A DNA stretch of 64,000 nucleotides from Capsaspora owczarzaki ATCC 30864. Lineage: Eukaryota > Opisthokonta > Filasterea. Where the stretch lies: contig NW_011887297.1 in NCBI RefSeq assembly GCF_000151315.2, positions 1,155,587 to 1,219,586 on the forward strand, read 5' to 3'. This document shows, piece by piece, positions 5,701 through 57,277 of this stretch. Every line of letters starts with the position of its first letter. The stretch's first letter is position 1. The position numbers were made by a program, and so were the translations under genes. The notes under the pieces are model-generated. The model was given only the letters and a program-made list of their open reading frames with translations, had not been told where the DNA came from and made no database searches.

Positions 5701-6250
5701 GGCTGGTCCTCGGTCGACTCGAGCACCTGGCAGCCTTGGGTCGCCGAGAGCATGGTCAGCTTGTCCTATGGATGGGTTCGAAGCAGTTGTAGTTGAGCAT
5801 GTTGCAACCAACAGCAACAACCCGAAAGTCAAAGTAAAATAAAAAATACAAAAAAAAAAAAAAAAAAAAGCAAGAGCGATGTGAAAACACAAAAAAAAAA
5901 ACAAAAGTAGGAACTGTGCGTTGTTTTCCAAAACAATGCACGCCCCCGAGGTGCCCCCCACATTCGCCAACTCGAAAACACAACGCACATGGGGCGAAAC
6001 AGCAAAACTGTACCTTGGATTGAATCAGGGCTTTGAGGCCATTGTCGGGACCGACAGCGCGAACAAGAGTCATGGGCGAATCGGTGCCGTCAAAGTTGGT
6101 CGGAATTGTGTGTTCTTCCATGAAGATGGATTGCTGATTGGCATCGAGCTCGGTGGAAATGCGCTCATTTTGTGAGAAATCGGGCAACTGGAGCGTCTGG
6201 GCAGACGCCAGCACCAAGCACGCAGCGAGCACGACAATCGTAGCACGCAT
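2792..6250 (-). CDS. Large type I surface glycoprotein, copy A (apparent frame break)
   Basis: Paralogue of genes B (23481-26564) and C (19194-22861); family function unknown. Exons inferred from copy B: 6250-6014, 5765-5582, 5480-2792. Exon 1 encodes a signal peptide (MRATIVVLAACLVLASAQ). Exon 3 holds the ectodomain, a Ser-Ala-rich stalk (encoded about 3,120-3,465), a transmembrane helix near the C-terminus (MALPVVAGIACSTLLVG...) and a short basic tail with YRRRQR. NxS/T sites suggest N-glycosylation. The summed exon length is not a multiple of three. The frame changes by two modulo three near 4,575-4,660, where a 39-nt EPSSAVVEPSGSA unit is repeated and where B instead has an intact reading. 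A small unrecognised intron, a real mutation or a sequence error could explain it. The first half is about 98% identical to B including introns; the second half is much more diverged. Confidence 0.75.
3120..3465 (-). repeat. Ser-Ala minisatellite in the stalk of surface protein A
   Basis: Degenerate 6-30 nt repeats, read on the minus strand as alternating Ser/Ala/Gly (SGSASASASASVSASAR and SAVSGSASTISGSAS types). They encode an extended, probably O-glycosylated stalk just before the transmembrane helix. Copy B has no comparable tract, only a short Ser/Ala/Val segment, so the stalk is a rapidly evolving part of the family. Confidence 0.8.
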
Positions 6251-6590
6251 TCTGCTCCGAACAAAACAAAACAAAAACCGTTGTGAGCGAAGGGTGTTTG
6301 TTCCTGGTGTACTGCTGCGCACAACCACGCCCCTCCCCCTCGAGCGAGATTTTGAAACACAAAGGGAGAGGCATGCCGTTGGGAGGAGGAAACTCTCATG
6401 CTCAAGCCGGGCGGGAGGAAGGGCTTGCAACCGGAAACACAAACACGTAAACAAACAATCGAAACGGAAAATACAAGCCGACAAAGAAGCCCTCAGCCAC
6501 CACCAAGCGGAACCAAGCGGCCTAGAACTTAATCATTACATTGTGGAATGAGCTGTCCGAATGTAGAGGGGCGAGCTTAAAAGGGCGATG
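4680..6590 (-). repeat. Left arm of a long inverted duplication (5' half of gene A plus promoter)
   Basis: This segment matches 23145-25075 in reverse complement. Exon 1, intron 1 (including its poly-T tract), exon 2 and intron 2 align without gaps and with only a few substitutions: two differences in exon 2 and three in intron 2 by eye. Outside the coding region the match extends through the leader and about 300 bp of upstream DNA. It fades near the TTTTAAGC element at about 6,575-6,585, whose counterpart lies at about 23,153-23,162. On the coding side, identity drops sharply after the residues NSWF. Edges are approximate. Confidence 0.85.
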
Positions 6591-19193: not shown

Positions 19194-22100
19194 ATGCGCG
19201 CTCTTCTCTTGCTGCTGCTGGCTAGTTGCTTGTTGGCCGTTGCGTCAGCGCAGACGCTGGTGCTGCCAGCCTTCACCTCCAACTCTCGTATTTCGACCGA
19301 GCTCGACCTCCCAGACGAGCAACAGACCATTTTCATTCGCGAGCGCACCGTGACTTACAACTATGACTTGAGCCCAAACCCAATGACGCTGGTCAGCGTT
19401 CTGAGTGCCAGCACGAGCATTAAAGCCCTGATCCAAAGCAATGTAAGTGCTGGAAGTACGGAGTGTGGAGGTTGTACACCTATGGGGCGCTCAACTTACC
19501 TCATGTTACTGCTCCGGATAGACTGAATTTACCATGTACTCGAGCGCCTCGGGATGCTCTACGCTCGGCCCAGACCCGATTGCCTACATTCCTCTGGACT
19601 CGGCCTTCCCCGGCTTCACGGGCCCGAAGCGCAAGTACTACTTTGGTTTGCGCGACCTCTTCGCCAACAACGACTTTAGCACTGCAGTCTTTGATAGTAC
19701 GTGCAACTTTTGATTGCGGAAAGCCTGCTGATGATGTGATGCAGATGTACCAACCACGCCCGTCTGTGCCTTTTTTCTTCTCTCTTGTTGGTTCTGTAGG
19801 TCCACAAAACTTCCGAGGCATCAATTGCAACATGTTCAAGGTGTCCAACATTCAGAAGGCCGGATCGTCCTATGACGCTTTCATTTACGTGCCTGTGGAC
19901 CCTTGGATCTGGTATGCCAGCGCCCCGGGCGCATGGATTGCTGCTGTTCACTTTGTGGGAGTCATCTGCCCCGATGTGGCTGTTCCGTGTTCCGTCAGCG
20001 ATGCTGGACTCGTTCCTTTCCAGCAGTGGTACAACTACTTCTTCCCCATCCAAGACACTGCCGACACTGATACGTCTCTCGATCTCGGGCTGCTGGCGTC
20101 GTGCCCCTTGTTCACATCCTGCGGTTGTCCCGACCCTGTCGTCCCGACGGTGCCGTATCCCGTGTTTGCTCCGACCGTCACCGCCGAAGTTCTTGTTACC
20201 AACTATGGGCTGCAGCAATCCAACTTGACGTACGAAGGCTGGGACTTTGTGAGTCCGACGCCCATGAACGGGTTGCCTGCGGAAAACAGCTGGGTGGTCA
20301 AGTCCAACGCAGGATTCTTTGACCAGAGCATTTATGCCGTCGCCTTCACGCGCAATCTGATCTTTGAGCTGGATTCGACCTACCTGTGCAAGCTCACCGA
20401 TATTAGCGACAAGTCTGTGGCCCTGCTCAATCCCAAGCCGGACAACTTGTTCCAGCTGCCTCCTGCCATCATGGACTCGATCTACAGCCAGATCTTGCTG
20501 TCCAGCGACCCTATCGTTATCCACGGCTTGATTGACTTTTACATTATTGCCAATCAGCTGACCTTGACCTACAACGGGCAGCACGTCGTGCGTGGCATCA
20601 AGTGCCACTCCTGGTTTGCCTGGTTTGACACGCCCGTGTTGCAGAACAAGGTTGTTCCCACTCATCGCTACATTCTGACCATGGACTTTGCCATCGACGA
20701 GTGGGACTTTACCGAAAGCAGCGTTCAGCTCCAGTCGACCCCCGTTCGCTTCCAGTTGATTGACCTGCCGACAGCGCTGCCGACGTTTGATATCTCCATT
20801 CTGTGGGAGGACGACTGCTACGAAAAGGCCACGAAGGCCGGCTTGATTGCCAACTACTGGATCTACGACATCTTCTCCATCACTGGTGGGTTTTACCCTG
20901 TGTGCACAGACGTGGTGTACGACATGTGCAAGGCCATCGCGCCACCTGTCAAGCCAGAGTGCCCGACCTGCCCATGCCCAGTTTGCCCAACGTATCCCAC
21001 CTACCCGAACTACCCCGACGTGCCCCCTCCGATCAAGCCAGAGTTTGAGTGCTACATTAACGTGCACGACCAGGTCTCGGGCTACCAAAAGTTCTGCAAG
21101 ACGACCTACTCGAAGATTGTGCAGTCCTGCACCATTACCGTGTACCAGACAACCACCATCAACACCGTGGTCGTCATCAAGGGCAATGGCGAGTGCAACT
21201 GCAAAGGCAGCTACGAGCACTACAAGCCAGAGTCGCCGTGCGTCGCAGCCAAGCTGCCGAGTTATCTCGATCCGTTCGAGCCAGACTACAAATCGAGCAG
21301 CGTCAACCGGCGCGAGACCTTGCAGGCGCAGCAGAGCGACCTGATTTTCAACTCGACCAGCGATCCTTCCGTTGAGGACTTGACCCAGGACATTGTTCTC
21401 ATGTTTGGCCGCCTCGATCTCGTGAATGCATCCTTCATCGACAACCGCACAGTCGCTGGCGTTGTGACCCAGTACTGGTTGGGCTACGTGTCGACCACCA
21501 ATCTTTGGTTTGGCTTCTACTTTATCGTCACAACCGGCAACGCAACGACCAACACGAGCTACACTCCCTTCCGCCTTGAAGTGTTCCAGTTTACCACTTG
21601 TTCCCAGAACAGCGCGAACGGCACGGGCCAATGCTCTACCAGCGGCTTCCTGTCGGGGAACGGCAATCGCAACTACACCATCTTCCGCACGTACGATTTC
21701 ATCCATGTCACTCCTCCGGCGCAAGCGCTCCAAGCGCAAGACTTCAACCTGCCGTGCGTGTCTCCCAATCCATCTTATCCAGGCGTTCGCAGCTCCAGCT
21801 ACGCTCCCACTCCGTCCTACTCTTCGTACTCGTCCTCGACGTACAGTTACAATTCGAGCCGCACGGCGACGCCGACTTACAACACCTCGTACAGTTACAA
21901 CACGAGTCGCACGGCAACGCCAACGTACAACACTTCGTACAGTTACAACACGAGCCGCACTGCAACGCCGACTTACAATACCTCGTACAGTTACAACACG
22001 AGCCGCACTGCAACGCCGACTTACAATACTTCGTACAGCTACAACACGAGCCGCACGGCAACGCCAACGTATAACACTTCTTACAGCTACAACACGAGCC

Positions 22101-22861
22101 GCACTGCAACGCCGACTTACAACTCGACCTACAGCTACAACACGAGCCGCACTGCAACACCAACGTACAACACTTCTTACAGTTACAACACGAGCCGCAC
22201 CGCGACGCCAACGTACAATACCTCGTACAGCTACAACACGAGCCGAACAGCGACACCGACTTACAACACCTCATACAGTTACAACACGAGTCGCACTGCA
22301 ACGCCAACGTACAATGCAACTTCCCGGTACAACACGAGCCGCACAGCGACGCCAACTCACAACTCGACCTACAGCTACAACACGAGCCGCACAGCGACGC
22401 CGACTTACAATGCAACTTCCAGGTACAATACGAGCCGCACCGCGACACCAAGTTCGTCGCGCAACATTTCGTCCACAGTGTCTCGCTCGTCTTCCGTCCA
22501 GTCGTCAAGCCTGTCTTCCTCTCGCACTCCTGTTGTTTCCAGTTCGTCATCCGCTTACTCCAGCAATACTCCCATTCCGACAGAGCCGCCTAGGTCGAGT
22601 CACTTTGTTGAAGAGCCCGTGCTGAGCCCAACCGACAGCGTCGAAAACCGTCGCCGCGCGCTACGTGATGAAGAGCCGTGGAAAGAGCAAGCAGAGCAAC
22701 ACAGCGAAGGCAACAATCCGTCAGCCGTGATCCTGTCGGTGGCCTGCGTTGCGCTGCTTGCTGTCGCTGCTGGCACCATGTTCCGCGCAGTTCGTCGCCG
22801 CATGCGCCATGTCCGCTTTGCTGCGCTGCGCACAACCCTGAATGCAGTGGCAACCGTATAA
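19194..22861 (+). CDS. Large type I surface glycoprotein C, with mucin-like tandem repeats
   Basis: Three exons: 19194-19442, 19522-19696, 19800-22861 (1161 aa). Most diverged member of the A/B/C family, sharing its intron positions and phases, the signal peptide (ALLLLLLASCLLAVASAQ), the PxFxxNxRISTEL start, the FRGINCNMFKVSNIQKAG block and repeated SWF/MDFAI motifs. It has a private Cys/Pro/Tyr insert (CPTCPCPVCPTYPTYPNYP). Thirteen copies of a 16-residue Tyr/Asn/Thr/Ser unit follow, then a Ser-rich stretch, a transmembrane helix (AVILSVACVALLAVAAG) and a short Arg-rich tail. The repeats carry many N-x-T/S sites, so a heavily glycosylated stalk is likely. Role unknown; cell-surface coat or adhesion is inferred from architecture. 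The same-strand order C then B suggests tandem duplication before the inverted copy A arose. Confidence 0.8.
21843..22450 (+). repeat. 48-bp coding minisatellite, 13 copies
   Basis: Unit of 48 bp reading YSYNTSRTATPTYNTS with small variants (NST, NATSR). SRTATP occurs 13 times at 48-bp spacing, in frame, inside surface gene C. Synonymous differences between units show the array is not brand new, but the protein sequence is kept uniform. Each unit has two N-glycosylation sequons plus Thr/Ser for O-glycans. Confidence 0.92.
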
Positions 22862-23480
22862 ATCGCCACTTGAGAATTGCATCTGTCCGCTTTGTGACGT
22901 TGTGTTTGTGAATTGCATGTCATCCAATGTACAGCAGATTGAGCATGGATCTTGCAGCGATCGCCGATTTGTTTTGCCTCAGCCACATTGCATAGAGCGA
23001 GATTTGTGAACATCACCACGTGCGCTAGTGGCGAATGTTTCGTCATGGATGCTGTGATTCGCCATTTTTTCTTTATGAGGGCATACGCGATGGCGCAGCG
23101 CACAACAACAACAAACATAAACGCCACGAGAAACAACGCCGCTCCCCATCGCGTTTTTAAGCCCTTCGGTCCGCTTTCGGACGGCTCATTCCACAATGTA
23201 ATGATTAAGTTCTAGCCCATTCGGGGCTGCTTGACGGCTATCTGTGCATGCGATTGATTTGTTGGTTTGTGTGTGGTTTCTTATGTGTTTGTGTTTCCGG
23301 TTGCAAGCCCTTCCTCCCGCCCGGCTTGAGCATGAGAGTTTCCTCCTCCCAACGGCATGCCTCTCCCTTTGTGTTTCAAAATCTCGCTCGAGGGGGAGGG
23401 GCGTGGTTGTGCGCAGCAGTACACCAGGAACAAACACCCTTCGCTCACAACGGTTTTTGTTTTGTTTTGTTCGGAGCAGA
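22862..23480. promoter_or_regulatory. 3' flank of gene C and promoter region of gene B
   Basis: No coding region seen. From about 23145 the sequence matches the upstream region of gene A in inverse orientation, including a TTTTTAAGC patch at 23,153-23,162 and the GGCTCATTCCACAATGTAAT block at about 23,182-23,201. The conserved part probably contains the shared promoter and 5' UTR of A and B. Confidence 0.55.
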
Positions 23481-25075
23481 ATGCGTGCTACGATTGTCGT
23501 GCTCGCTGCGTGCTTGGTGCTGGCGTCTGCCCAGACGCTCCAGTTGCCCGATTTCTCACAAAATGAGCGCATTTCCACCGAGCTCGATGCCAATCAGCAA
23601 TCCATCTTCATGGAAGAACACACAATTCCGACCAACTTTGACGGCACCGATTCGCCCATGACTCTTGTTCGCGCTGTCGGTCCCGACAATGGCCTCAAAG
23701 CCCTGATTCAATCCAAGGTACAGTTTTGCTGTTTCGCCCCATGTGCGTTGTGTTTTCGAGTTGGCGAATGTGGGGGGCACCTCGGGGGCGTGCATTGTTT
23801 TGGAAAACAACGCACAGTTCCTACTTTTGTTTTTTTTTTTGTGTTTTCACATCGCTCTTGCTTTTTTTTTTTTTTTTTTTGTATTTTTTATTTTACTTTG
23901 ACTTTCGGGTTGTTGCTGTTGGTTGCAACATGCTCAACTACAACTGCTTCGAACCCATCCATAGGACAAGCTGACCATGCTCTCGGCGACCCAAGGCTGC
24001 CAGGTGCTCGAGTCGACCGAGGACCAGCCTGTGGCGTTCATTCCAGACGCCGCAGCCTTTGCCGACTACACCGGCCCCAAGCGTCAGTTCTTCTTTGGCT
24101 ACCGCGATCTCGTGAACAACCACGACTTGAGCTCTGCCGAGTTCAATGGTGAGTGGCTGTGCGGCGCTGTCATGGCACGAATTCGACAATGTTGGTGCTC
24201 GTTGTTTGTTGGTCTCAACTCTGAAAATCCGCGTGCCTTGGTTGCTCAGAAACCCGAATCTTCCGCGGCATCTCGTGCAACGTCTTCACGGTCGCCAACA
24301 TCCAGAAGGCGGGCGTTGCCTACGACGCAACCATCTACGCTCCGGACAGCGACTGGACTTGGTTTAACAGCGACAACTCGGACAAGTGGCTTGCTGCGGT
24401 CGAGCTGAACGGCATTCTGTGCGCGAGCCGAAACGAGACGTGCGACTTTGACAGCGCCAATGCCACCGCCGACTCGACCACGTTCACGCAGTGGTACAAC
24501 TTTTTCTTCCCGCTCACTGACACTGGGGTCACCAACCCGTCGCTCGACCTTGGTCTGCTTGCCTTCTGCCCGCTGGACTCTTCGAGCGACAGCTCGTCGG
24601 TTGCCGCACCCGTCTTCCCCGAGACCGCCAACGCCCAGGTGCTTGTCACCAAGGTCGGCTCCACCGAGTCTGTTTTGACCTGGGAGGCGTGGAAGTTTGT
24701 CACCGAGACGACCGAGACATCGAGCTTCAACCTGACCGAGAACGGCTGGATTGTCAAGACCAACGCTGGCTTTGCCGACCAGTCCATCTTTGCCGTGGCC
24801 TTCTCGCGCAACCTGACCTTCACCATTGACCCTTCGTACGGCTGCAACGAGACCGACTCGTCCGACACGTCGATTGAGCTGGTGAACGAGAAGACGGACA
24901 ACGTGTTTGGCCTGCCCGAGGCGCTCACCAGCTCCAACTATGCCAAGCGTCTGCTCAGCTCGTCCCCGCTCACCATCCACGGTCTGATTGATCTGTACCT
25001 GATTGGCAACCAGCTCAACCTCACGTACAATGGCCAGCGCCTCGTTCGCGACATTGCCTGCAACTCGTGGTTTGC
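23145..25075 (+). repeat. Right arm of the long inverted duplication (5' half of gene B plus promoter)
   Basis: Reverse-complement partner of 4680-6590. Non-coding parts (promoter, introns 1 and 2) are as similar as the exons, so the similarity reflects recent duplication or gene conversion, not protein constraint alone. Edges are approximate. Coding similarity to copy A continues at a lower level to 26564. Confidence 0.85.
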
Positions 25076-26564
25076 CTCGTTTGATGTTCCCGTGGTTGAG
25101 ACTGCATCGCCGCCCTCTAACGACACCGAGCCCTCGTCGGCAGTTGTCCAGCCTTCTGCTTCTGCGGAGCCAGAGCAACCAATCGCTACTCCCACGATCA
25201 AGGCTCGTCAGTACTTGCTCATCATGGACTTTGCCATCGCCGATTGGACCTTTACATCCAGCAATGTGGCTGTTGACTCGCCGCCCGTGCGCTTCCAGCT
25301 GCTCGAGATGAGCACGGACAGCAGCGGCGATTCGTCCTCGACTGGCGCCTTCAACTGGAACTCGGATGAAATCAATGATGCCACCACGTCGGGTCTGATC
25401 GTCAACAACTGGATCTTCGACATCTTCTCGATCAGCGGCGACGTTGTTGGCTCCGAATTGGCCCTGCCAGAGTTTGCCAAATGCAAGGCCGTTCTTTCGT
25501 CTTCATCAGCCTCCTCGAACACGACCGTGTACCCCGAGCTGGCGCCCTCGTTCATCTCGTTCATTTCCATGATTGACACTGTGACCCCCGCCGCCTCGTT
25601 GATTCAGACGTGGTATGACGATGATTCGGACGCTCTTCGCTTTTCGTTCTACGACAACCTCGAGCTCAGTGTCGCCAAGATCATCTGGGGCACATCAAAC
25701 CAGCTCAACACGCTCGAGCCCAGCCAGGGCAACTCGGCCGATGTGTGCAACTCGGAGGACTTGCCCGCGTCTCTCAACCCTTTCCTCACGCCTGACCAGG
25801 TGGCCAACCAAACAAGCACTGTCGAGTTCTCGGCGGGCAACGACCTCACTCCTGACGAAATGCTCCAGGAATTGGTGCTGCCCTTCGGCCGTCTTGACCT
25901 CGTCAACGCATCGCTTGTCGGCGAGCGCACCCTGTTTGGCCGAACCTCTCAGTACTGGCTCGGGTATGATGAAGCATCGAATCTTTGGTTTGGATTCTAC
26001 TTCTTGCAGTCCAACACTGGCGACGACGCGCCCGTCTACGTTCCCGTTCGCCTGGAGGTTTCCCAGCTTGCACTCTGCGACTCTGGTGCTGGCGGCGGCT
26101 TGTGCTCTGACAACGGCATCCTTCCCACCTCGGACAAGCGCTCATACACTGTGCACCGCTACTACGACTTTTTCGGCCTCTCAACGACAGCCCTCATTCC
26201 CAACGCCGTGTTCCGTCCACTGGAGTGTGGTGGCAGCAACGCTTCGTCGGCCATCGTCAGTGCTTCCGCATCTGTTGCCCCCGCCAGCTCTTCTGCTGTT
26301 GTCGAGCCCAGCGGATCGCCAGTTGAATCTGAACCTGTGGACGAGCCGCCGATTGACGCGCGTCGTCGTGACGTTATGAACAATCTCGTTGCTCAAGCAA
26401 GCCGCACCTCTGGCCGCCCGAGCCATGGATTTGGCATGGGCGCCGTCGCTGGAATCGCAGTCTCGACCCTCCTTGTCGGCACGGTCATTGGTGGTGCGAT
26501 TGTCCTGACTTATCGTCGCCGCCGTGAAACGTACTCTCCGATGTATGCGGTGTCACTCTCGTAA
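23481..26564 (+). CDS. Large type I surface glycoprotein B (intact copy)
   Basis: Three exons: 23481-23717, 23965-24148, 24250-26564 (911 aa), all in frame. Signal peptide MRATIVVLAACLVLASAQ; Cys-containing ectodomain with many N-x-T/S sites; repeated sub-blocks such as VKTNAGFADQSIFAVAFSRN and LLIMDFAIADWTF; a Ser/Ala/Val-rich linker; a transmembrane helix (VAGIAVSTLLVGTVIGGAIV); and a short YRRRRE tail. The ectodomain does not match any family I can name. Exons 1-2 and both introns are almost identical to copy A. From about 25,090 on, A and B differ by substitutions and indels. The family is probably lineage-restricted and surface-exposed (inference). Confidence 0.85.
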
Positions 26565-26919: not shown

Positions 26920-29594
26920 CTACTCCCAGGTTTGTCCTTTGCCTAGGAGAGCCGAGTCTTCCCCTTGGTTGACATTGTATGCAGAAAGGTCAAGGCCAGA
27001 ACGACGCTCTCGAACGAGGAGTGCGACGAGAACGATGCAGACAAGAAGCATGATCGAGCCAAGTGCAATGCCGCTCCAGTGAACAGCGGTCGAGGCGATA
27101 AGCGGCGTGTACACTTGGTCTTTGAACTGGCCGGCAAGATCGGCCGTGATGCAAACACTCTCGTTGCCGTAAAAGATGGGGAGCATCGCGTACGGGGTTT
27201 TGCCCGTGCGGAAAATGTAGGGGTCGTTGCGAATCTCCATGTTCAGCTGCAGACGCTTGGCTGCCTGCATCAGCGCGCCCGTGATTGGCTCAATGTCAAG
27301 GTTGGTGTCGTGCCACTCGCGGACGGGGTGCAAACCGAGGACATTGGTTCGGTAAATTTCATCGCCGTCCAAAAAGTGCGGCTTGGAAGCAAAGACAGGA
27401 GCACCCGCCGCCGTGCTCATGTTCAACACACCAGATGGGCCAAAGTCGTAGAAGGCGGCGTTGTCGGGGTTGACTGTAGAATTTGCGAGCAGCATCGGGT
27501 CGATGGTGAAGCGCTTGAGTCGGATTCCCTCCACACTCACGTCTGAGTGGTAGAGAAGGTATGCAGAGCTATGGGTGGCAGGATGCGAAAGAAGAAGATG
27601 AAGCAGGAGTGAGTGAGTGTGTGAGAGAGAAGACTCGAGTGTCATCGTGGAGGTAAAGAGGAACAACATAAGCAAAACAGAACTCTGTCAAAGCTCATCA
27701 GCGCATACCGGTAAATAGAGTCGACGAAAACGGCTGCAATGAAATCATCTTGCACGTCTGGGGCAAACTGCGACGCGTCCGTGCCGTTGATCATGTTGGC
27801 ATACTTGGAGCCCCAGTAGGGAAGCTCAGTGAAGCCATCCCACTGAATGTACCGGACCACCTGGTTGATGTCTTCCTTGCCAGTGAGAATCTTCGAGTCA
27901 AACTGCCAGTCGGGAGCAGAGTCGTTCTGCTGCAAAGCGATGATGGGGTCGATGGTGTTGTCCACCAAGTGCAAGGCGGACATCAGGGGATCCTTGTAGC
28001 CCCAGAGAATTTCGCGGACGGGACGAGTCATAAAGTACTTTTCCTTCGGGAAGGCCTGGAGAAGACCGTCGATGGCCATCTTCACGGCCAGGCCCTTGGT
28101 GTAGAGCAAGCCCACAAGACCCTGCAGAGCGACAAAATCAGACACGGTGAGTGTTGAGACAGAGGGGCAATCAGCAGTCTTCCAGACAAACGTAGCCAAA
28201 GGAGCAGAGCAGACGTACGCAAAGGCCAAAGTTGATTGTCGTGATTTGATCGTCTTCCGTGTTCGTGCCCGACATTTCCTGGTTGAAAATGTACGTTTGA
28301 TGTTGGCGGTAGGTCAAGACGGTCTGATTGGCGTTCCACGTCACGTTGACCTTGATGCGCAGTTCACTTTGAATGATTGGATATTGGAGAGAGCAAGTGA
28401 GTACAGAGGCCTGAGCCACACGAAGCTATCGTCAAGTCAAAGGGATTTCTTACTTGTAGACATAGGGACCCATTTCGCGCACAAACGGCGGAGAGCCGTG
28501 GTCAAAGACTTCTTCGGGATTTTCCACGTTGAACATGAAGAAGGTCATGTAGATTGGAATGGAAGGGTTTTGCCATTGGTCGTAGAGCGCCGACGAGGTG
28601 CTTGTGAGCATGACGGACTGTGTGTCGCATCCAAAAATTCAAAGTTAGACTACATGCTCACAGTTTTTGGATGATCATCAACATCCGCTCCACACATTTT
28701 GAATGTTAGATTCGACATGGTGGTGGTGGTGGTGGGTGACCGATCATCATCTGACCCTGAGATTGTTGTTTTGGTTTTGTGTTTTCAGTGTATGTTTGAG
28801 CATTGCAAAAGCCGGTCTCTCTCTCTTTTCAAGCACTACGAAATTGCCGTCCCTTTGACCCTTGAGGTCAATACTAGTGACATGCCGACGCCGAGCCGAC
28901 AGCGGGGTGGACCGGCATATGGCTCCCGGCAGCACCACGGTTTTGCTAATGTGCAAGCCACACTTTGTCCGTCTCTCTCTCTCTCTCTCTCTCAGCGCTC
29001 AGCTCTCAGCTCTCAATGCAAGCAACTAAACAAACTCTCCTTCTTGTTGTTCACATGAATGCAATGATTGATTGAAACGAGACGGACGACCAAACACAAA
29101 ACCCGCCATCAAAAAAGCGACCGGACAAACTGAGGCAATGATCGGCTATTTGAATAAAAAAGAATCAACCGAAAGTTAAAAAAAAAAATAAAATAAAATA
29201 AAAATACAAAGAGCGAAAGAGGAGCAGCCACCGAAGCGAGCGACAGAGCGAGTGCAGCGGATGGACGACGATGAGAGTGAGAAGTGAAGGGACGGGAAGG
29301 GAAGGGAAGCGGAAGGGAGGGGAGAGAGAGGTGGAAGGGGATTGGAGCAGCAGCTGTCAGCCAGTCACAAGCCCCACTTCACTTCGACCACTTCGACCAC
29401 TTCGACCACCACTGCTACAAGTACGACGGAAAACTCACGTCTTTGACTTCCATCTTGACAAGCCAGTTGACGGCAGGGTCGATGGCAATGCCGACAGCGA
29501 GGAGAAGAGCGCCAAGCGCGCCCATCCAGATGGCGAGCCGCTTGCGAGTGCACACGCAGCAGCGACGACTTGAACCAGCCGCAGGAGCGCCCAT
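26920..29594 (-). CDS. CD36/LIMP-2 (SCARB) family receptor
   Basis: Five exons: 29594-29439, 28617-28454, 28366-28219, 28121-27709, 27568-26920 (509 aa, close to the usual 470-510). CD36-family proteins are two-pass membrane glycoproteins that bind lipids, lipoproteins or lysosomal cargo. The N-terminal cytosolic stub (Cys-rich, RRCCVCTRKR) precedes the first helix (LAIWMGALGALLLAVGIAI). Family hallmarks follow: FFMFNVENPEEVF, PPFVREMGPYVY, VNVTWNANQ, and near the end GAPVFASKPHFLDGD. The large ectodomain ends in a second helix (SGIALGSIMLLVCIVLVALLV) and a short tail, DSALLGKG. The acidic DSALL resembles an acidic dileucine endosome-lysosome sorting signal (inference). Intron 1 is long (821 nt). 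The gene lies head-to-head with cyclin H. Confidence 0.88.
28618..29438 (-). other. Long first intron of the CD36-family gene
   Basis: An 821-nt intron, much longer than its neighbours. It contains CT/GA microsatellite DNA near 28,970-28,995, a GGT run near 28,716-28,735, and A-rich and AAAAT-repeat DNA near 29,176-29,206. I see no coding exon or RNA gene inside. Confidence 0.6.
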
Positions 29595-35996: not shown

Positions 35997-37367
35997 CTGT
36001 TCAACACCCCCCCCCGCAGACAAAGAAACAAAAAAAGCCATCGCATTAGAACATGAGCTTTTTGTTGTTGGTTGTTATTGTTCAGTGAGTGCTGATCAGT
36101 CAGCGTCGTCGTCGTCGTGTAGTGTGGCTGAGGGCCTTTGCGGTGTTGTGGTTCAATTGAGCCAGTATCCGCGCTTTATCCCACGATTCCATCACTGTCT
36201 CACTCCAAGCACTACACAAGCACAAACCCCCTCCCCCTGCCAAACACCACTAGCAAAGGAAAGCTGAAGCATGCATGGGAAGGAGGGGGGATGGAAGTGA
36301 TCCACAACAATAACGGTTTGCGGTTCTGTTGAGTTTGGCTGCTTCATCTTCATCCCCTCTCCCCCGTTAATGGCTGTGTGTCTCCCGTCCTGCTTGATTA
36401 GGATCACGCGATTTGGCGGAAACCAAGCAAGACTGACGTGTGAAAATGCGGGGGGTTTTGGTCGGCTACACAGCCAACGGGTTTTTGGCTGCGTTGGATA
36501 CTGATTTTATCTCTATTTGGCGAGGTTTCCGAGTACTTTTTTCCTAACGGCGCTCCATACGGCGCGGTGAGTAATGGAAACTTACACATTCTGGTGTTTA
36601 GCTGTGTGTAAAAAGACTGCTTCGTTGGCAATAAAAAACAAGGAACTAGACCAATCCAAACACCGCACCATCTTAAGCTGTACAATGACAGCACATGGAG
36701 TACTCCAAACATCGCTATCACCTGGACTCCCTGGGGATCTCGGCGTAGGTCGAACCGTTGCAGTTTGTTGATCTCAACTGTTTTTGTTTTTTGTTTTTTT
36801 CCCCTCCCGAAGCCCCCGAAGAGCCCAGGGTCGTGTTTGTGTTTGTTGTGTTTTGCTGTGTTGTGTTATTTTCGGAGTCTGAGAAATTTATAATAGCTGG
36901 ACAGATGGTTGTTTACTCAGTCGTTTGTTCCATAGCTTGGCTGTCTTTTCAGAGTAACAGAGTACGTCGAGTCATGCTTCCGTGTCAAAGTACAGAGCGG
37001 CTAAAGTCCCCCGCAAGCCGCCTTGGCATGTGGATTGCGATTGTTTCAAGCATCTGGACACGCGCATCGTGGCGGCAGCGCGGGCCAGACGAGCACAGCA
37101 AACTTGAGCCGTTCACAGTTTTTTTTGAAACGCCAAAGCCAGTCCTAAAAACGATGGAGTCGCTGGATCAGCGTCAGCCTGCCGCGACCGAGCTGCGCGA
37201 TCTGGATCTGCAAGCATGGAATACTCTGAAAGCACTGCACCTGTGGCGGAAGACGGGGTGGGGGCGGGGGCGACTGGGGACGTACGAATACCATGCGGAC
37301 ATCATCGCCAATGCTTCGAATGCTATTGCTCACCTCACATCCGCTGAACCTTGGATCAGATTCTACC
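35997..37367. other. Region between LIM and LRR-kinase genes
   Basis: About 1.4 kb with no securely defined exon. It should contain the missing first exon of the LIM gene (minus strand) and the promoter of the LRR-kinase gene (plus). An open plus-strand frame from 36758 to 37435 looks non-conserved and overlaps the LRR gene's first exon in another frame, so I do not call it. C and G homopolymers occur near 36,006-36,016. Confidence 0.4.
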
Positions 37368-40300
37368 ATGAGTGGCAACAAGAAGACCGGCGAGTCCCTA
37401 GCCAAAAAGATCAAGGGCGCGCGCGGTGGCATTGAGCAAGTCACTCTGAATGCATGTTCTCTCTGCTCATCGCGTCTGCATTACTAACTTTTACTGCTGC
37501 TCGTGCTGCTAGATTTCGCGATCAAGAAATGGGTCCCAAAGGTGCACACGTGATTGCAGAGGAACTCAAAGTGAACACGACGCTGGTAGCGCTCGGGTAA
37601 GTCATGTTCATTTTTTTCACTCGCTTGTTTCCGTGTACTCATTGCATCTCTACAGCATGGGGCGCAATGCTATCGGCGATATAGGCGCACAATCAATCGC
37701 TGCAGCTCTCAGGCAAAACCATACGTTGACGCGCATCGTGTTGTCGTTTCGTTTTCGTTTTCGTTTTCCTGTGCTTGTTGCTTTTGCCACAAACTGGAAA
37801 CTAACCTGTCCTCTTTCTCAGCTTGTACAACAATGACATTGGCCCTGTTGGCGCAAACGAGCTTGCCACGGTGCTTGGCACCGAATCTTCCCGCTTGGCC
37901 ATTCTTGCGTACGATCTCTCTCTGCCCGCGTTTTGACATTGTTGGATGGTTTGTTGCCAGTCTAGAGCTCACATTGCGCCCGATGTGCACATGATTTAGG
38001 TTGTTTGAGAACCACATTGGTGATGAAGGTGCTATCGCAATGGCCCTTGCCCTTAAAAACAACAAGACGCTGACTCAGTTGTAGTAAGGTTCTTCTTCGT
38101 ACGGAGGTTGTGGCAACGCGCCTTGTCGCCATCGTTCTCAACCTTGATCTCCGGTCTGTTCGGTGCAGTTTGGCCAACAATAAGATTGGCGAAGTTGGAG
38201 CGAGAGCCCTCGCACTTGCTCTCCAAACCAACTCCAGTTTGACAGGATTGTCGTACGTCACACCCTATCGTTTATGCCGCTTCGTTTTCTGCTCGTGCTC
38301 GGCGCTACTTGTACTAACCTGTCCCCGCACGTTGCAGTCTCCATGAAAATAGTATCGGTGATGCAGGAGCGCTGGCGATCGCCGAGGCGCTGGCAGTCAA
38401 CACGTCCATGACTGAGCTCTAGTAAGTGTCTTGCTTGCTCGTGTTTTTGGCGGTGGCGGCTTGTTGCTTCTCGATCAGGCAAAAACGAACTTGATTTTGC
38501 TTCATTTCTCTCGTTGACACGGCAGCTTGCACACGAATGGCATTGGTGATCCGGGCGCGATTGCGATTGCCACGGCGCTCACCAAGAACAAGACCTTGAC
38601 TCGTTTAGCGTCAGTGACTCGTTTACAATAGCCGGCTTGCACTCGGGCTAAACGCTTACCTGTGCGCTTTGTTTGATTCGATCGATAGGCTGGAGCAAAA
38701 CAACATTGGGAAGGCTGGTGCCGAGAAAATTGCTGCCGCACTCAAAGAAAACGAAAGTCTGACCGAGTTGGAGTGAGTTTGTTCTGCCGTTTTCGCAACG
38801 CGCAGCCAGCTGGCTGATCATGAATCGCACAACCTAACTTGGCCGTTGTCATTCCTTCGCGATAGTCTGGGTGAGAATGAAATCCCGTCCGACGTTGTAA
38901 AAAAGTTCAAGGCGCCCAGCGATAAGAAAAAGTGCACCATTCGGTAAGTCTTCTACGTCCGGGCTTGTGTGTCGTGAAAAGACGGATTTCTCACTCAGTG
39001 TGCCATCTGGTCTTCCTGCTGTTTTTGCTTTCTGTTTGTGCAGCTTGGATCACCAGAAAAGCGCAAGGTGAGCAAAGTCCTAGACTGGCTTTTGTTTGCG
39101 TCATTGGAAGCCGAGGAGGGGTCGTCATCGAAAACTTTGACTCAACAACTTTGACTCGTTTCTTTTCCGTTTTCAGCGTCGTCCAGTCCGAGCCTAGTAT
39201 CGTTTCCATCGTCGGCAAAGCCACCAGCGGTTCATTAAAGTAGGTCGAAATGTCTCCAGATTGTGGTTTGTTTCTCAACCGCTGGTACTCATGTTTCGTT
39301 TCTATTGTTGCGCAGTTTGGAGAGCAAGAAGATTGCCGAACTTGCCATGGAAGCCATCTCGCGGGCTATCGTGACGAACGGGACGATCACAAAAATGAAG
39401 TACGCCGATTCGAGCAGACTTGCGTTACGTTTTTTTTTTTTACTTCCTTTGCCCGTTTTTGTTCATCGCCTAACCTGTGAATGTCTATGAGCCAGTTTGA
39501 AGAACAACACCCTCGCAGATATCGGTGCTAGACTTTTGGTCGAAAATTTGGTCGATAGCAAGCTGCATCTGAATCTTGTCAGCTTAAAGTAAGTGGACTT
39601 CTCATACCTATCCCCCCTCCAATTTTGTCTTGCAGAGTCGTTGTTGCTCATTTGCTGTCCGTCTCGTGCCACACACATCGTCAGCTTGGATTCCAACAAC
39701 ATTGGCAACGATGGAATGGGTCATCTTTGCAAGCTCCTCGAGGGGTCTGCTTTGCAAGAATTGAGGTAGCGTTCGTCCTTGCTTTGTCAACCGACGTATT
39801 CTTCAAATCGTTTGACTGACTCGCTTTCACTAGTCTGAACCATAATTGGATTGGTGATGCTGGAGCCCAGGCCATCGCGAGCACACTTACAGCCACCACT
39901 CGCAAGTTTGATCAAATGGAGCTCAGGTGAGAAGTTCAATGATCGACGCGCAGGTTGTTTCTCGGTGTGTGTTTTGAAGTCTCCTCTCACTTTTTTTGTT
40001 GACTTTTGACACAGGCTGAAGGGCAATCGGATTGGCGAATTGGGTGGTGACGCAATACTCCTCGCTCTGAAACCTCTGAGCACGCAATTCAAGCTCGAGT
40101 AAGTGACATGGCTGCATCTGTTGCAGGCGAGTTGCGGCGGCTGTTTTCCGACTGGCTCATCTGTGATTTGTGTCGAATTCAGCCTGTCCGAGAACAGATT
40201 GCCCGCGAGGTGCACGGAAAAGTTTGACCAGCTCAAGTCTGTCCTGTACGCTCAATTTTTATTTATTGATTCTTATGATGAATGTTTTTCGGTTTCGAGT

Positions 40301-42153
40301 CTTTTTGGGTTGGTGAAATTTCCTTTTTTTCGCGTCACTCACTTTTCACCGTTTCACTGCTCAATAGGGTTGACAAGCAAGACACGCCCCCACCCATCAC
40401 CACTCTTCTGGATCGTCTGCGCAGCTACGAGACACAAATGATGACAGACCACATGGAGTTTCGCTCGCTGTTCTTTGAGCTCGAATCCGCTCTGGCCGCG
40501 TCGAGCACATTTACCGAGAGGATTCTTGCCGATGTTGTGGTGCAGCAAGAGGAAATCTCCAAACTCAACCGGCAGATGAGCGCATGGCCCAAGAAGCTCG
40601 AGAAGGCGCGCATCAAACGTGATACTGCCGAGAAAGATCTCAAGACGAAAGAGCTCGAGTTGGAGGAGATCAAGACCAAGAATGAGGTACTCGAGTTTCA
40701 GATGAGCAAGGTTCGCAACAACGAGGAAAAGCTGCGATTGCTTGCGGAACAAGTGCAAGCTGCCGAAGCCCGACAAGCTGCCACCAATGCGGAACTCCAG
40801 GGAGCTCGCGGTGAAATAGGCCGTCTTCATACTGCATCGCAGAAGGCACACACGGATCTCACAGCTCTTCGAGCGGAGCTCGCTCGCAAGAGCACCGAAC
40901 TCGAGCAGGCGCAAGCTCAAGTACAAGCTCAAGCACAAGCTCAAGTACAAGCCGCCGCGCGTGCTCCTGCCGCCGTCCCTGTAACTGCCCCTTTAACCGC
41001 CCCTTTAACCGCCCCTTTAACCGCCTCGCCAGCCCGTGGTCCTACTGCTGCCGAGTCAACTTCACCTGCCATGGGTGTAGCAATCCCCAAAATTCCGCTC
41101 AAAGATCTGTCCAATGCGACCAGCCAGTTTGCAGACAACAACGCGCTCGGTAGCGGTGGTTTCGGCAAAGTGTACGCTGGTGTCTGGTCGCAACAAGTTG
41201 CTGTCAAGCGCCTGGCGAACCAATCCAACCAAGGGACTCAGCAATTCCAGGCCGAGCTTGAGGCCTTGTCGCGGTTTCGACATCCAAACATTGTCACGCT
41301 CTTGTGCTATGCCGAGGAAGGCACTGAGCGCTGCCTTGCGTATGAGTTGATGATCAATGGGTCTGTTCGCGATCGCCTCGACCGCAAATCCGGCAGCCCT
41401 GCACTGACTTGGCCGCAACGACACCGCATTGCGCGCGATGTGGCTCGGGCAATGGACTATGTACAAACCGCTTATCGTCAGCCGCTATTCCATCTAGATC
41501 TCAAAACGGCCAATGTGCTATTGGACGCTGAGTGGGTTGCCAAAGTTGCTGATTTCGGTCTCAACCGCGTTGCGCCGCTCAATTACGACGCGCACAACTA
41601 CATTCGGACGGAGACTGTGCAAGGAACGAAGGGCTACATGTGTCCCGAGTATCAGACCGAGGGCAAAGTGTCCGTCAAAACCGACGTGTACTCTTACGGA
41701 ATCATTCTGCTCGAGATACTGACAGCCAGAGCTCCCAACATGGACCTGACGGCTGATGTACGCAGAGTGTTCAAGCGAAAGCGAGTGATGAACGATATTC
41801 TCGACGCCGCCATCTCGTGGGACGCGGCAGATGCCGAGTCCGCCAATGACATGGGCCATCTTGCATTGGACTGTCTTGAGTCTCGAGTCGATCGGCCCTC
41901 CTTTGGTGTAATTCTGCGGCGGCTGATGGGCGAAGATCCTGATTCAGAGCCAGATGTCGAGGGCGAGCGAGCCCGCGAGTGTCTTGTCTGTGCCGAGGCG
42001 CCGACGACCGCCAAGCTCAATCCTTGCCACCACGCCTGTGTTTGTGTGTCGTGTGCAAAGCGGTTGATCGAGCTCCACTTGAGCTGTCCAGTTTGCCGAG
42101 CGCCAATTGAGAGCATGACCGAGGGTCAATATTCTCAAACGTACGTCGCGTGA
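37368..42153 (+). CDS. LRR / coiled-coil / Pelle-type kinase / RING protein
   Basis: About 1,065 aa. Eighteen exons after a provisional first exon (37368-37439): 37513-37596, 37656-37739, 37822-37908, 38000-38083, 38169-38252, 38338-38421, 38526-38609, 38689-38772, 38866-38943, 39044-39067, 39177-39239, 39316-39399, 39496-39588, 39685-39765, 39834-39926, 40015-40098, 40183-40245, 40368-42153. Nearly every exon is one 28-residue ribonuclease-inhibitor-type LRR (LxxNxIGDxGAxAIAxAL) cut in phase 2. Blocks of eight and six LRRs are separated by a Lys-rich spacer. The last exon holds a coiled coil (about 40,440-40,910), an Ala/Pro linker, a kinase (GSGGFGKVY, VAVKRL, HLDLKTANV, DFGLN, GTKGYMCPEY) and a C3HC4 RING (CLVCAE, CHHACVCVSC, CPVC). 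The kinase is IRAK/Pelle-like and non-RD. No transmembrane segment is seen. Exon 1 does not join exon 2 in phase. Confidence 0.85.
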
Positions 42154-42169
42154 GTGTGAGGTCGAGTTC

Positions 42170-42175
42170 AATAAA
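42170..42175 (+). terminator. Poly(A) signal of the LRR-kinase gene
   Basis: AATAAA begins 17 nt after the stop codon at 42153, followed by T-rich DNA and then a CA dinucleotide tract (about 42,236-42,270). Position and motif fit a cleavage and polyadenylation signal with a very short 3' UTR. Confidence 0.55.
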
Positions 42176-42236
42176 CTATTTATAAACTATTTATTCATAA
42201 CTTCTTGAAAGCGCAAAACAACAAAAAAAATTCTCA

Positions 42237-42269
<33 letters not shown>

Positions 42270-42341
42270 CAAAACATTTCACAAAACAAAACCGGACAAA
42301 CAATCAAAGATCCACAACATTTCAGTGCTACACAGCTCCTA

Positions 42342-44786
42342 TCAATCATCGGCATTTCGCTGCTGCGTATTTCGAGCAGTCAGCTGGCCACCTGGATTGG
42401 CACCTTCGTTTGTGGTAACGATCGTGTCCATGGCAATCTCTTCGTCGTCGTCGTCCTGCGACACTTGCAAGTACGGGTTGTCGGCGCCAGGGCGGAAGTG
42501 CACACTGGGTCAAGCGTCACGAGTAGATTATCGACAAAGTGAGCGAGGAGATGAACCAAACGAACAAACGAACAAACAAACAAACAAACCAAAAACACCA
42601 CGCCGCCATCTTACCCGATCCAGATGAAAAAGCCGAGCATCAGGAGCTCTTCAAACAGCTTGGCCAACCACTCGTACTTGAACGGCAAGGCAAGACGGAG
42701 CAACTCGACAAAAATCTCGTTGAGGAAGACGTAGATAAACACAGCGGCGTAGAGATAGCGGAAGAGCTTGAGCTTGGGGAGAGCGCGGTTGGCTGCGGGA
42801 TGACACGTCAGTGGAGTGAGCAGCCAAGAGATGAGACACACGATGCGACATCAGCGGGGGACAGAAAAGATACACACGCACATGCGCGACAGCTTTTTGC
42901 AACATACCTTTGCCGTCAACGCCGATCGAGCTGTGTAAATGCTTGATCGACCACATAATCATGACGAGAACAACACCACAGCTGATAATGTTCACCATCT
43001 TGTTGATTCGGTTCCACTCGGCGTGCATTTGATCGGACACGTCCAACTCTTCGGAAATGATGCTGGCACTGTTCGACAGCAGCTGCAAGCCCAGAATTCC
43101 CGCCAGCACGTACTTTTCTCGCGCCGACAGGTAGAACTTGATGAATGTGAAGCCGGCACCAATCATGGCAATTGCCACGAAAAACAGGCCAGTGCGGGCA
43201 AATCGGAAAATGTAGTAAAAGACTTGCCATGCCTCGTTGGCAGTGCCTTCGGTCTGAAGGGTGCGGTCGCGCATCTAAAGAGTTGGAAAAGGAAGAAAAA
43301 TGCAACGTGAACGGGAGATTTCACAAAAAACAAAAAAAAAACAAAAAAAAAAAAAACAAAACAATAAAGCGAGACAGCAAGCACTTCGGATCCAGTGAAG
43401 CAAAGTGTATTGCTTCTTTTTCAACCGTTGAAAACTCACCGCGAGCGAAAACGAGCTGCAGGCCTTCAAGAAAACCAAAACAAGCATCAAGTAGTGAATC
43501 TTGAAGACCATGTTGCGGCGACTGACCAAAATTCCCGTCCAAAGGATTGCCGCGCACACAAAGCAAACGGAAGTGACGACGAGGACGATTGGCAGAGGCG
43601 ATTCGCTGGCAGACAGGTAGTCGCGGTTGCCGGAGGCGTCGAGATTGTATTGCTCAATGTGCAACTGACAATGGGGGGAAGCAGAAAGAGCCGACAAAAG
43701 AAAGAAAAAACAAACATGATAGTGGTGAGCAACACAACGCACGCATGATTCAACGCCAAGCCAACGGTGCAGACGAAAAACACTACCTTCATGGAGACGG
43801 CAGAGTACGGAACAGAGGAGACACCGGTCGGGCTGGCCATGAGATTGTGGCAGTTAAAGAAGGCAACGTCGTACATGAACTCGGTTTGTGCGGTCGCTTC
43901 AATGACAATGGACTTTGTGCCGTTTGGGAAGACGGCGCTGGATTCGTTCTGAGCGACCTTGCCGACGCGCTTTCCATCGACCGTTCCATAGGACACGCGT
44001 GCCATGGCGTTTGCACCGCGGCTGATGGTCGTAAACTCGCCATTCGCGCTCAGCCACAACTGAATGACGTTGCGCTCTGGCACGGCCTTGATCGGGCAGC
44101 TGGTTTGGATGTACGTCTCAGAGTACATTGCGTCCGTTTCCGTGAGCCAAATGACAATCGCTGTCGGCGCGGTGGTCAACGGCGCGCCCGACAAGCTCTT
44201 GATCTAAACACAGCAATAGTGCGGTCAGTTTGTCAGCATCATGCACACTTGGTTCCAAGGCATAGAGGTATCGCTCAAGAGCCGGGTTTTTGAAATGTAG
44301 GTCTTTCCAATGCAGTTCCCCCCCCCCCCACCCCACCACACACTCTCGCTCAGCACCCCCAACACAGAATGAAGGGGCGCAAACATTTTGTTGCTCGTTT
44401 TGCAATGTGAGCGAGAACGACGGCCGCGGTCGAAGCGAGCGGTAACCGTGAGTTTGAAGCGTCATCGCTCTCCATTCCCGCTTCACCCCATTGCCCCTCA
44501 ACACCCCGACCACCCACCTCCGGTGGAGATTACTATTTGTTCAACATCAACAAAGGGAAGGGGACGATGACTTGTGGCTGTGGCTGGCGTGGTGGGTTGT
44601 CGTTTTACATTGTACGAGAGCAGCGTCATGTCGATGATGCCACGTTGGAGGAGGCCAAAGTTGGTGACTGCGACGCTCGCCCGTGTCGTCGACCTCGAGC
44701 GTGTGGATGTCGGCGCGTGCAAAGGGCGCGAGCAGAGAGAGCAGCAGCAGCAGCAGCAGCGGCACAGAGACCCGCTGCAAACGCAT
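42342..44786 (-). CDS. GPR107/GPR108-type seven-helix (GOST) protein, apparent frameshift in exon 1
   Basis: Six exons: 44786-44609, 44203-43787, 43664-43440, 43274-42908, 42792-42615, 42504-42342. GOST proteins have a lumenal beta-domain and seven helices and act in Golgi/endosome trafficking. Exon 1 has a Leu-rich signal peptide (VSVPLLLLLLLSLLAPFARAD) and then the family start (IHTLEVDD...; SVAVTNFGLLQRGIIDMTLLSYN). These two parts are in different frames: exon 1 is 178 nt where a multiple of three is needed, so an apparent one-base insertion (or two-base loss) lies near 44,675-44,690. Later exons are intact: lumenal domain (TAIVIWLTETDAMYSETY), KIHYLMLVLVFLKACSSF, GAGFTFIKFYLSAREKYVLAG, KMVNIISCGVVLVMIMWSIK. 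The signature GxGxxFxKxxLxxREK is typical of the Lung 7-TM family. Confidence 0.85.
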
Positions 44787-55916: not shown

Positions 55917-57277
55917 TTATCGGTGAGATTCGAGCAGCGGCACAAAGGTCTGTGGATTGACGGCAAAAGACGCGAGCATCTCAATCTCGAGAATGTGCAT
56001 CGTGCCAGCGAGCACGAGCGAGTGCAACGGCGCGCCAAAGTCAGCCGTCAACAGCTCCTCCAGCGTGCCAGAAATGATGCGTTGATCGCTCTGGCCGACA
56101 CGTGCAAGCCCAGCAGCGATTGTCTTGCGATCATAGACTGGGGTTTCGCCTAGATAACACAACAGTTGTCGCATGCGACTGCGTGAGGCACGGTAATTGA
56201 CCGATAAAATGGACTGCGACAAGACATACAAAGAAAAAAATACATACCAGCATCGCGCTTCTTGTCTGACACTTCAAGAAGCTGCTCGACAGCTTGGTTC
56301 ACCGTCATGTAGCGCGGAGGATCGTAAACGACCTTGCCACTGTCACAAAAAAACAAAACCCAATGAACGACAAATCCGTTGCGAGAAACGATTCGCCGCA
56401 ACAGCGTTTGACATACCGCATCATCGCATCGAGATTGGGCTCCTTGACTTTGATATCGAGGAGGCAGAGCGAGTGCAGACCGCCCTTGACGTTAAAGGCA
56501 ATCTTGTCGTAAAAGCTGTCCGGGCGCCAAGTCTCGGTGAAGAAGCAAATCGAGACGCTCTGGCCGTAGTTGTACAACTGCAATCCGCAGCAGCCGATGG
56601 CGTTCATGATGGATGCATTGTGGATGACGCTGAACGGGATTCCGCGTTGCTTTGCCCGCAAAATCATATCGGTATGGGTGGTTGCGCTGCCAAGCGAAAC
56701 GAGCATCGAAAAGTGAGAACGAGAAGCCTGGATTGCCCCACGGACGAGCCTCGCACTATTTTTTTTCTTTCATATTCAATCGTGCATCAAACCAACAGAG
56801 ATGCGTACCCGAATGGATCGCCGACGACCAAGAAGGCAACGTCGTCCTCATGGGCGTTGTTCAGAATGAGGTCGGCGTTGCTCTCGACGGTTTCGCGGTC
56901 TGCCACCTCGATCTTCTTGTCGTACAGCTCCTCCTAATCAGCAGCAGCAGTCACAGTGAGTGTGGTTTGGCGGGGCAGCTTGAGGTCCGACCGAGATTTG
57001 ACTCCACGAGGGCGGCTCGTTCGTCGCTCCAGTCCACCATCAAGATCAAGCCAAGCAAACCAGCGCTCGGGCCAGAGTGCACTCATTCATCATCGAGCTC
57101 TAAATCACGGCTGATGAGGTCGAGCGACCCCAGACCACTCACAAGACGCTCCTTTGGCGTTGCCAGAATGCTCGTGTACATTTCGAGGAAGACACGCTTG
57201 CACTTGCGCACGGCCTCCAAGCCGCGCACGGTAATGTCCTTCTCGTCGCCGAGACCAAGACCAATGAAATACAGCAT
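55917..57277 (-). CDS. DPH5: DPH5, diphthine methyl ester synthase
   Basis: Five exons: 57277-57143, 56933-56809, 56686-56417, 56339-56248, 56149-55917 (284 aa, normal length). DPH5 performs SAM-dependent methylations of the modified histidine of eEF2 during diphthamide synthesis in the cytosol. Features: the N-terminal [21 protein letters not shown] start with the GxGLGD loop; [15 protein letters not shown]; the conserved [17 protein letters not shown] motif split by an intron inside the [26 protein letters not shown]; and the C-terminal [12 protein letters not shown] plus PLHSLVLAG. All introns keep frame. It converges with NUP50 (131 bp between stops). Confidence 0.96.

Follow-up and report, generated by a model that had tools for sequence, protein, structure and literature searches.

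Does a single gene of Capsaspora owczarzaki join recognition, phosphorylation and ubiquitination on one chain? The question is raised by a locus on contig NW_011887297.1 of strain ATCC 30864, analyzed within a window of 64,000 nucleotides (nt; positions 1,155,587 to 1,219,586 of the forward strand; all coordinates below are those of the window). At 37368-42153, a first-pass annotation had described a cytosolic-looking protein in which leucine-rich repeats (LRRs), a long coiled coil, a non-RD Pelle/IRAK-like kinase and a C-terminal RING follow one another. This description is borne out by a spliced model of 1063 residues, which carries the four parts in that order and on that strand and in which Pfam (E up to 0.05; 9 families found) identifies LRR_6 (1.4e-37), PK_Tyr_Ser-Thr (7.2e-40) and zf-C3HC4_3 (1.4e-10). 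The reading favored here, with a rough probability of 0.5, is that of a single gene for a cytosolic receptor-like sensor or scaffold that would cluster, phosphorylate and ubiquitinate.

The splice model places the gene on the forward strand as 19 exons and 18 predicted introns, open throughout, with an ATG at 37368 and a stop codon ending at 42153 as the limits of the predicted coding region. Seventeen of the 18 introns are of the GT-AG class and one is GC-AG; intron 18 is the longest at 122 nt, and the other 17 measure 59-109 nt. The GC-AG intron gives the best join of exon 1 (37368-37435), which holds the predicted start, to exon 2. Its donor, GCAAGT at 37436, agrees with the consensus at 4 of 4 positions, and the sole GT among the four in-phase donors (GT or GC) of exon 1, GTCCCT at 37394, agrees at 1 of 4. 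The acceptor of this intron is weak, and translation could alternatively start within exon 2, at the ATG at 37530. Among the other introns, 4 and 14 have low-scoring acceptors, and 3 and 15 low-scoring donors. The donor of intron 3 was placed by eye, as was exon 11, with splice signals as the guide for the latter; exon 12 was taken from the exon-search list. All 17 internal exons have lengths divisible by three, nine of them measuring exactly 84 nt. This frame preservation is not a blind result because the exon search imposed phase 2 at both exon ends.

The N-terminal part consists of LRRs of the ribonuclease-inhibitor (RI) type, mostly one repeat per exon. A first block, recognized as LRR_6, spans exons 2-10 (37513-38943) with one LRR in each, seven of these nine exons being 84 nt long, and a second block, derived from the exon search and the splice model, spans exons 13-18 (39316-40245). 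The array is split between them by a 29-residue insert without LRR signature, encoded by exons 11 and 12 (39044-39067 and 39177-39239). While the RI-type array had been correctly recognized before, its size differs somewhat from the 14 repeats first counted: about 15 LRR-like exons are found here, of which two (38866-38943, 78 nt; 40183-40245, 63 nt) are clearly shortened. An LRR-RI signature, composed after the repeats had been inspected, gave 10 matches in the six frames of 37501-40260 and 10 in the whole window, and it appeared in 0 of 300 first-order Markov resamples of 37501-40260. Among the best 60 of 81 PDB matches of the LRR part, a ribonuclease-inhibitor-like protein and MOP84A stand at the top, followed by ribonuclease inhibitor, 5irm and 5irl (which we take to be rabbit NOD2), LRRC34, DRC5 and NLRP3; ciliary and RanGAP proteins are thus represented in this set by LRRC34, DRC5 and RanGAP1.

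The arrangement of one RI-type LRR per frame-preserving exon, with the frame imposed in the exon search as noted, resembles that of human NOD and NLRC genes, most of which have one 28-residue repeat in each LRR exon, LRR exons of NLRs preserving the frame, according to the portion of the source drawn on here (PMC6642158). The 84-nt repeat exons were considered as proof of kinship with NOD and this idea was dropped, as another LRR gene of the window (60464-58027, reverse strand) has ten 72-nt one-repeat exons of the NQITSISANAFTGLTAL type near 60.5-59.0 kb. Since this gene shares the repeat-per-exon layout, the layout is not special here and does not prove kinship with NLRs. By eye, the repeats of this second gene are followed by a region rich in Cys and in Ser/Ala, then by a hydrophobic segment and a short tail, and its product is read as a surface protein.

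Exon 19 (40368-42153), a single open frame, encodes the remaining three parts. The long coiled coil proposed earlier agrees with two results: AlphaFold2 (AF2), run on the single sequence, predicts a helix of approximately 150 residues (515-664; 40504-40953), with a predicted local distance difference test score (pLDDT) of 81-89 over residues 540-649 and lower values at both ends, and in a home-made test the heptad score of residues 506-690 was reached by 1 of 300 residue shuffles. The kinase domain (residues 725-984; 41134-41913), assigned by Pfam and PDB matches, has all of its motifs: the G-loop GSGGFGKV, VAVK, the catalytic loop HLDLKTAN (41491-41514), DFG and CPEY, together with a helix-C-type glutamate in FQAEL. 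The translated catalytic loop reads HLD in place of HRD, confirming the non-RD state. When the kinase-RING part was compared with the PDB, the best 60 of 2352 matches were led by the receptor-like kinase (RLK) FERONIA (1.7e-50), BAK1, BRI1 and SYMRK and included IRAK4 (3.4e-41), with CTR1 and RIPK2 as the last two, well behind the plant RLKs and IRAK4. By sequence, then, the kinase appears closest to RLK/Pelle/IRAK members, ahead of RIPK2. At residue 791, the tyrosine of CLAYELM aligns with a tyrosine of FERONIA; this is presumably the gatekeeper position, where we take a tyrosine to be typical of IRAK. The 24 PADLOC families matched by exon 19, led by mad6 (5.1e-52) and the PD-T4-6 models, are all kinase matches except for a weak match of JetC to the helix, and as candidates they were set aside as general kinase likeness; a PHROGs search of the same exon returned one kinase family. 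The RING (residues 1005-1052; 41974-42117) has a complete set of ligands, CxxC..CxHxxxCxxC..CxxC, starting at residue 1007. Its Pfam assignment and PDB matches, which run from MGRN1 (1.1e-6) through CGRRF1, a herpesvirus RING and MDM2 to later and weaker cIAPs, point to a RING of the C3HC4_3 (MGRN1/MDM2/IAP) type.

The cytosolic look of the protein also finds support, the highest 19-residue Kyte-Doolittle mean being 1.16, without any strongly hydrophobic stretch. The membrane span and signal peptide that mark LRR receptor-like kinases were not seen, as judged by Kyte-Doolittle hydropathy. NACHT, NB-ARC, CARD, Death, TIR and SAM domains are all missing from the 9 Pfam families.

From the anatomy that is observed, we infer every step of a possible working. 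The LRR horseshoe would bind a ligand or partner, and the helix would dimerize or cluster the chains. Clustering could bring the kinases together for trans-phosphorylation and could also pair the C-terminal RINGs, which would then ubiquitinate their own chain or the substrates of the kinase. Non-RD kinases usually need no phosphorylation of the activation loop, and C-terminal RINGs of this type commonly work as dimers. That one chain may both emit a signal and ubiquitinate is a fair inference from the intact catalytic motifs.

Intron 18 (40246-40367, GTACGC..AATAG) is the predicted junction of the LRR exons with the kinase exon. The first-pass annotation had itself considered that these might belong to two genes, and what is found at the junction favors one, the splice join itself being a prediction. 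Left unspliced, the LRR frame meets its first stop at 40439-40441, already inside the kinase exon, and the coding parts are separated by only 122 bases. In a polyadenylation scan limited to the hexamers AATAAA and ATTAAA, none lies between 39240 and 42169 on the forward strand, while an AATAAA follows the stop codon at 42170-42175 and elsewhere on that strand of 36001-43000 the two hexamers occur only at 36630 and 39234. Codon bias over the first 60 codons of exon 19 scores +0.35 in frame, while the two remaining frames score -0.18 and -0.19, and this coding-like region includes 23 codons ahead of the first ATG of the exon. Several observations weigh on the other side, against the join as well as against the broader reading. 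As to the join, intron 18 has a mediocre donor (84th percentile of the GTs in the window) and is, as noted, the longest of the 18, and the frame is kept open by 24 of 72 candidate GT-AG pairs, which is approximately the chance level. In addition, upstream of exon 19 its frame stays open as far as an ATG at 40282 in intron 18, with a codon score of +0.20 over 29 codons, making a separate start possible. The locus would in that case consist of two adjoining genes, one for an LRR-only protein and the other for a protein of coiled coil, kinase and RING whose start codon might be, for example, the ATG at 40282, 40438 or 40453 (40441 is also in frame). The join is not settled by codon bias, since in the exon 19 frame the sequence of intron 18 also scores +0.20 from 40282 (its three frames score +0.12, -0.06 and +0.11). 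Taken together, and as a matter of judgement rather than computation, the LRR and kinase-RING parts very probably form one gene, and a division into two is improbable. The donor at 40309 and the acceptor at 40425 also keep the frame, and thus the linker between the LRRs and the helix (40246-40425) could vary by splicing.

The remaining opposing points concern what a protein of this kind would do. Run without an alignment, AF2 gave a confident structure for the helix and not for the kinase or the RING (mean pLDDT 50.1 for exon 19 and 39.1 for the kinase alone), RI-type LRRs are found in non-sensor proteins as well, and the viral and prokaryotic contig collections, which contain no eukaryotes, yielded no relative having the four parts in this order. 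The scans for relatives used six 8-residue peptides each, with confirmation by tblastn, and reach close relatives only; exon 19 gave 5 peptide matches in the viral contigs and 6 in the genome contigs, the LRR part 9 and the kinase-RING part 4 (both viral), and tblastn confirmed 0 of them. Given the nature of these collections and of the method, the absence of relatives says little. RLK/Pelle kinases, like RI-type LRRs, often occur in receptors, and this general point, with nothing more specific beside it, counts against a housekeeping or cytoskeletal scaffold that would have kinase and E3 ubiquitin ligase activity in cilia, trafficking or the cell cycle and no relation to immunity. Such a scaffold is a tentative alternative of appreciable weight, given the presence of LRRC34, DRC5 and RanGAP1 among the best 60 of 81 PDB matches and the case of LRSAM1, an LRR-coiled coil-RING ligase whose gene is in addition a neuropathy gene (PMC7874611). 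That the kinase is a pseudokinase or works as an allosteric switch, with regulation of the RING as its only task, appears unlikely: the non-RD loop is in favor of this, as some non-RD kinases are weak, and against it the G-loop, the VAVK lysine, the FQAEL glutamate, HLDLKTAN, DFG and CPEY are all in place. The earlier interpretation stands in its domain identities, their order and the non-RD state, while its immune part is weak: ciliary and RanGAP proteins too are among the matches of the LRRs, and chains with both a kinase and an E3 module have precedents. With RI-type LRRs occurring in ciliary proteins and RanGAP, immunity is one option among several, and an immune sensor role is a guess.

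Precedents of several kinds cover parts of the order: LRSAM1, LRR kinases and proteins with a kinase and a U-box. The first-pass annotation had called the combination unusual, and none of the literature matches listed describes an LRR-kinase-RING protein in its title or abstract opening; the four-part order appears unusual, and a kinase and an E3 module on one chain are known from plant U-box kinases and KEG. Plant LRR receptor-like kinases such as FLS2 and BRI1 have extracellular LRRs of the plant type, a membrane span and no RING, and many of the immune ones are non-RD. The protein described here shares with them the pairing of LRRs with an RLK/Pelle kinase, and differs in having RI-type LRRs and a RING and no membrane span by hydropathy. 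Plant U-box kinases are built as USP, coiled coil, RLK/Pelle kinase and U-box without an LRR array; coiled coil, kinase and C-terminal E3 module follow in the same order in both, whereas here the E3 module is a zinc RING with all C3HC4 ligands and an LRR array is present. In the NOD/NLRC pathway of animals, a kinase and an IAP-type RING act together, with RIPK2 and XIAP or cIAP as the partners. The likeness to this pathway lies in the RI-type LRRs and their exon layout; unlike it, the Capsaspora protein has no NACHT or CARD by Pfam, its kinase is nearer to RLK/IRAK than to RIPK2, and all parts are on one chain. IRAK proper differs in its N-terminal Death domain. The LRRs of LRSAM1 are of another type than RI. 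In the portion of the source drawn on, LRSAM1 is an E3 ligase with the order LRR, coiled coil, SAM, PTAP and RING, having six LRRs linked to pathogen or substrate recognition and no kinase in its domain list (PMC7874611). It thus resembles the protein described here in that a single chain carries LRRs at the N terminus, a coiled coil and a RING at the C terminus, and differs in that the SAM domain is not found here by Pfam and that a kinase is present here.

If the four parts do form one protein, recognition, phosphorylation and ubiquitination would be coupled on a single chain, while animals use separate parts for the same tasks, either NOD2, RIPK2 and the IAPs or TLR, IRAK and TRAF6/Pellino. 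In its most far-reaching form, which is doubtful, the idea is that innate sensing outside animals runs on one chain in a probable unicellular relative of theirs, where an NLR-like LRR horseshoe, an IRAK/Pelle kinase and an IAP-type RING would represent a NOD-RIPK-XIAP (or TLR-IRAK-TRAF) relay fused into one molecule with LRR repeats skippable without loss of frame. In choanoflagellates, for which the consulted portion of one study reports no evidence of IRAK or MyD88, LRRs and/or TIR domains are joined directly to kinases in Kinase TLRs and Kinase TIRs, a pairing proposed to bypass kinase recruitment (PMC6040629). The Kinase TLRs have their own transmembrane segment and TIR domain, neither of which was found here, and that portion makes no mention of a RING for them (PMC6040629). 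A cytosolic form that brings along an E3 of its own would, if true, be a second shortcut beside this one. As the LRR exons preserve the frame, skipping of any of them would keep it, and they would make it possible to test if exon skipping, described for human NLRP3 in the part of the source consulted (PMC6642158), diversifies sensors outside animals.

When the protein was compared with the window by tblastn, all matches outside the gene were at chance level (E 2.6 or worse). A bacterial promoter and terminator scan of 42100-42300 returned nothing useful, and neither a tRNA nor an Rfam match was found in the window. Downstream of the LRR-kinase-RING gene and convergent with it, the nearest coding stretch (42654-43274, reverse strand) encodes a GOST-type seven-transmembrane protein (Pfam, 6.1e-9). 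A CD36/LIMP-2 family protein is encoded at 26923-27687 on the reverse strand (Pfam 3.4e-51; PDB LIMP-2, 5.2e-23), an 85-residue piece of an open reading frame (ORF) at 55920-56174 on the same strand matches diphthine synthase (5.8e-9), and a LIM-like ORF was recognized by eye. The window also contains a three-piece inverted repeat (4280-6457 and 23274-25445), the arms of which are 92-99% complementary, lie 16.8-20.6 kb apart and carry nearly identical copies of a gene whose product looks secreted; an ORF at 19424-22861 is related to this gene.

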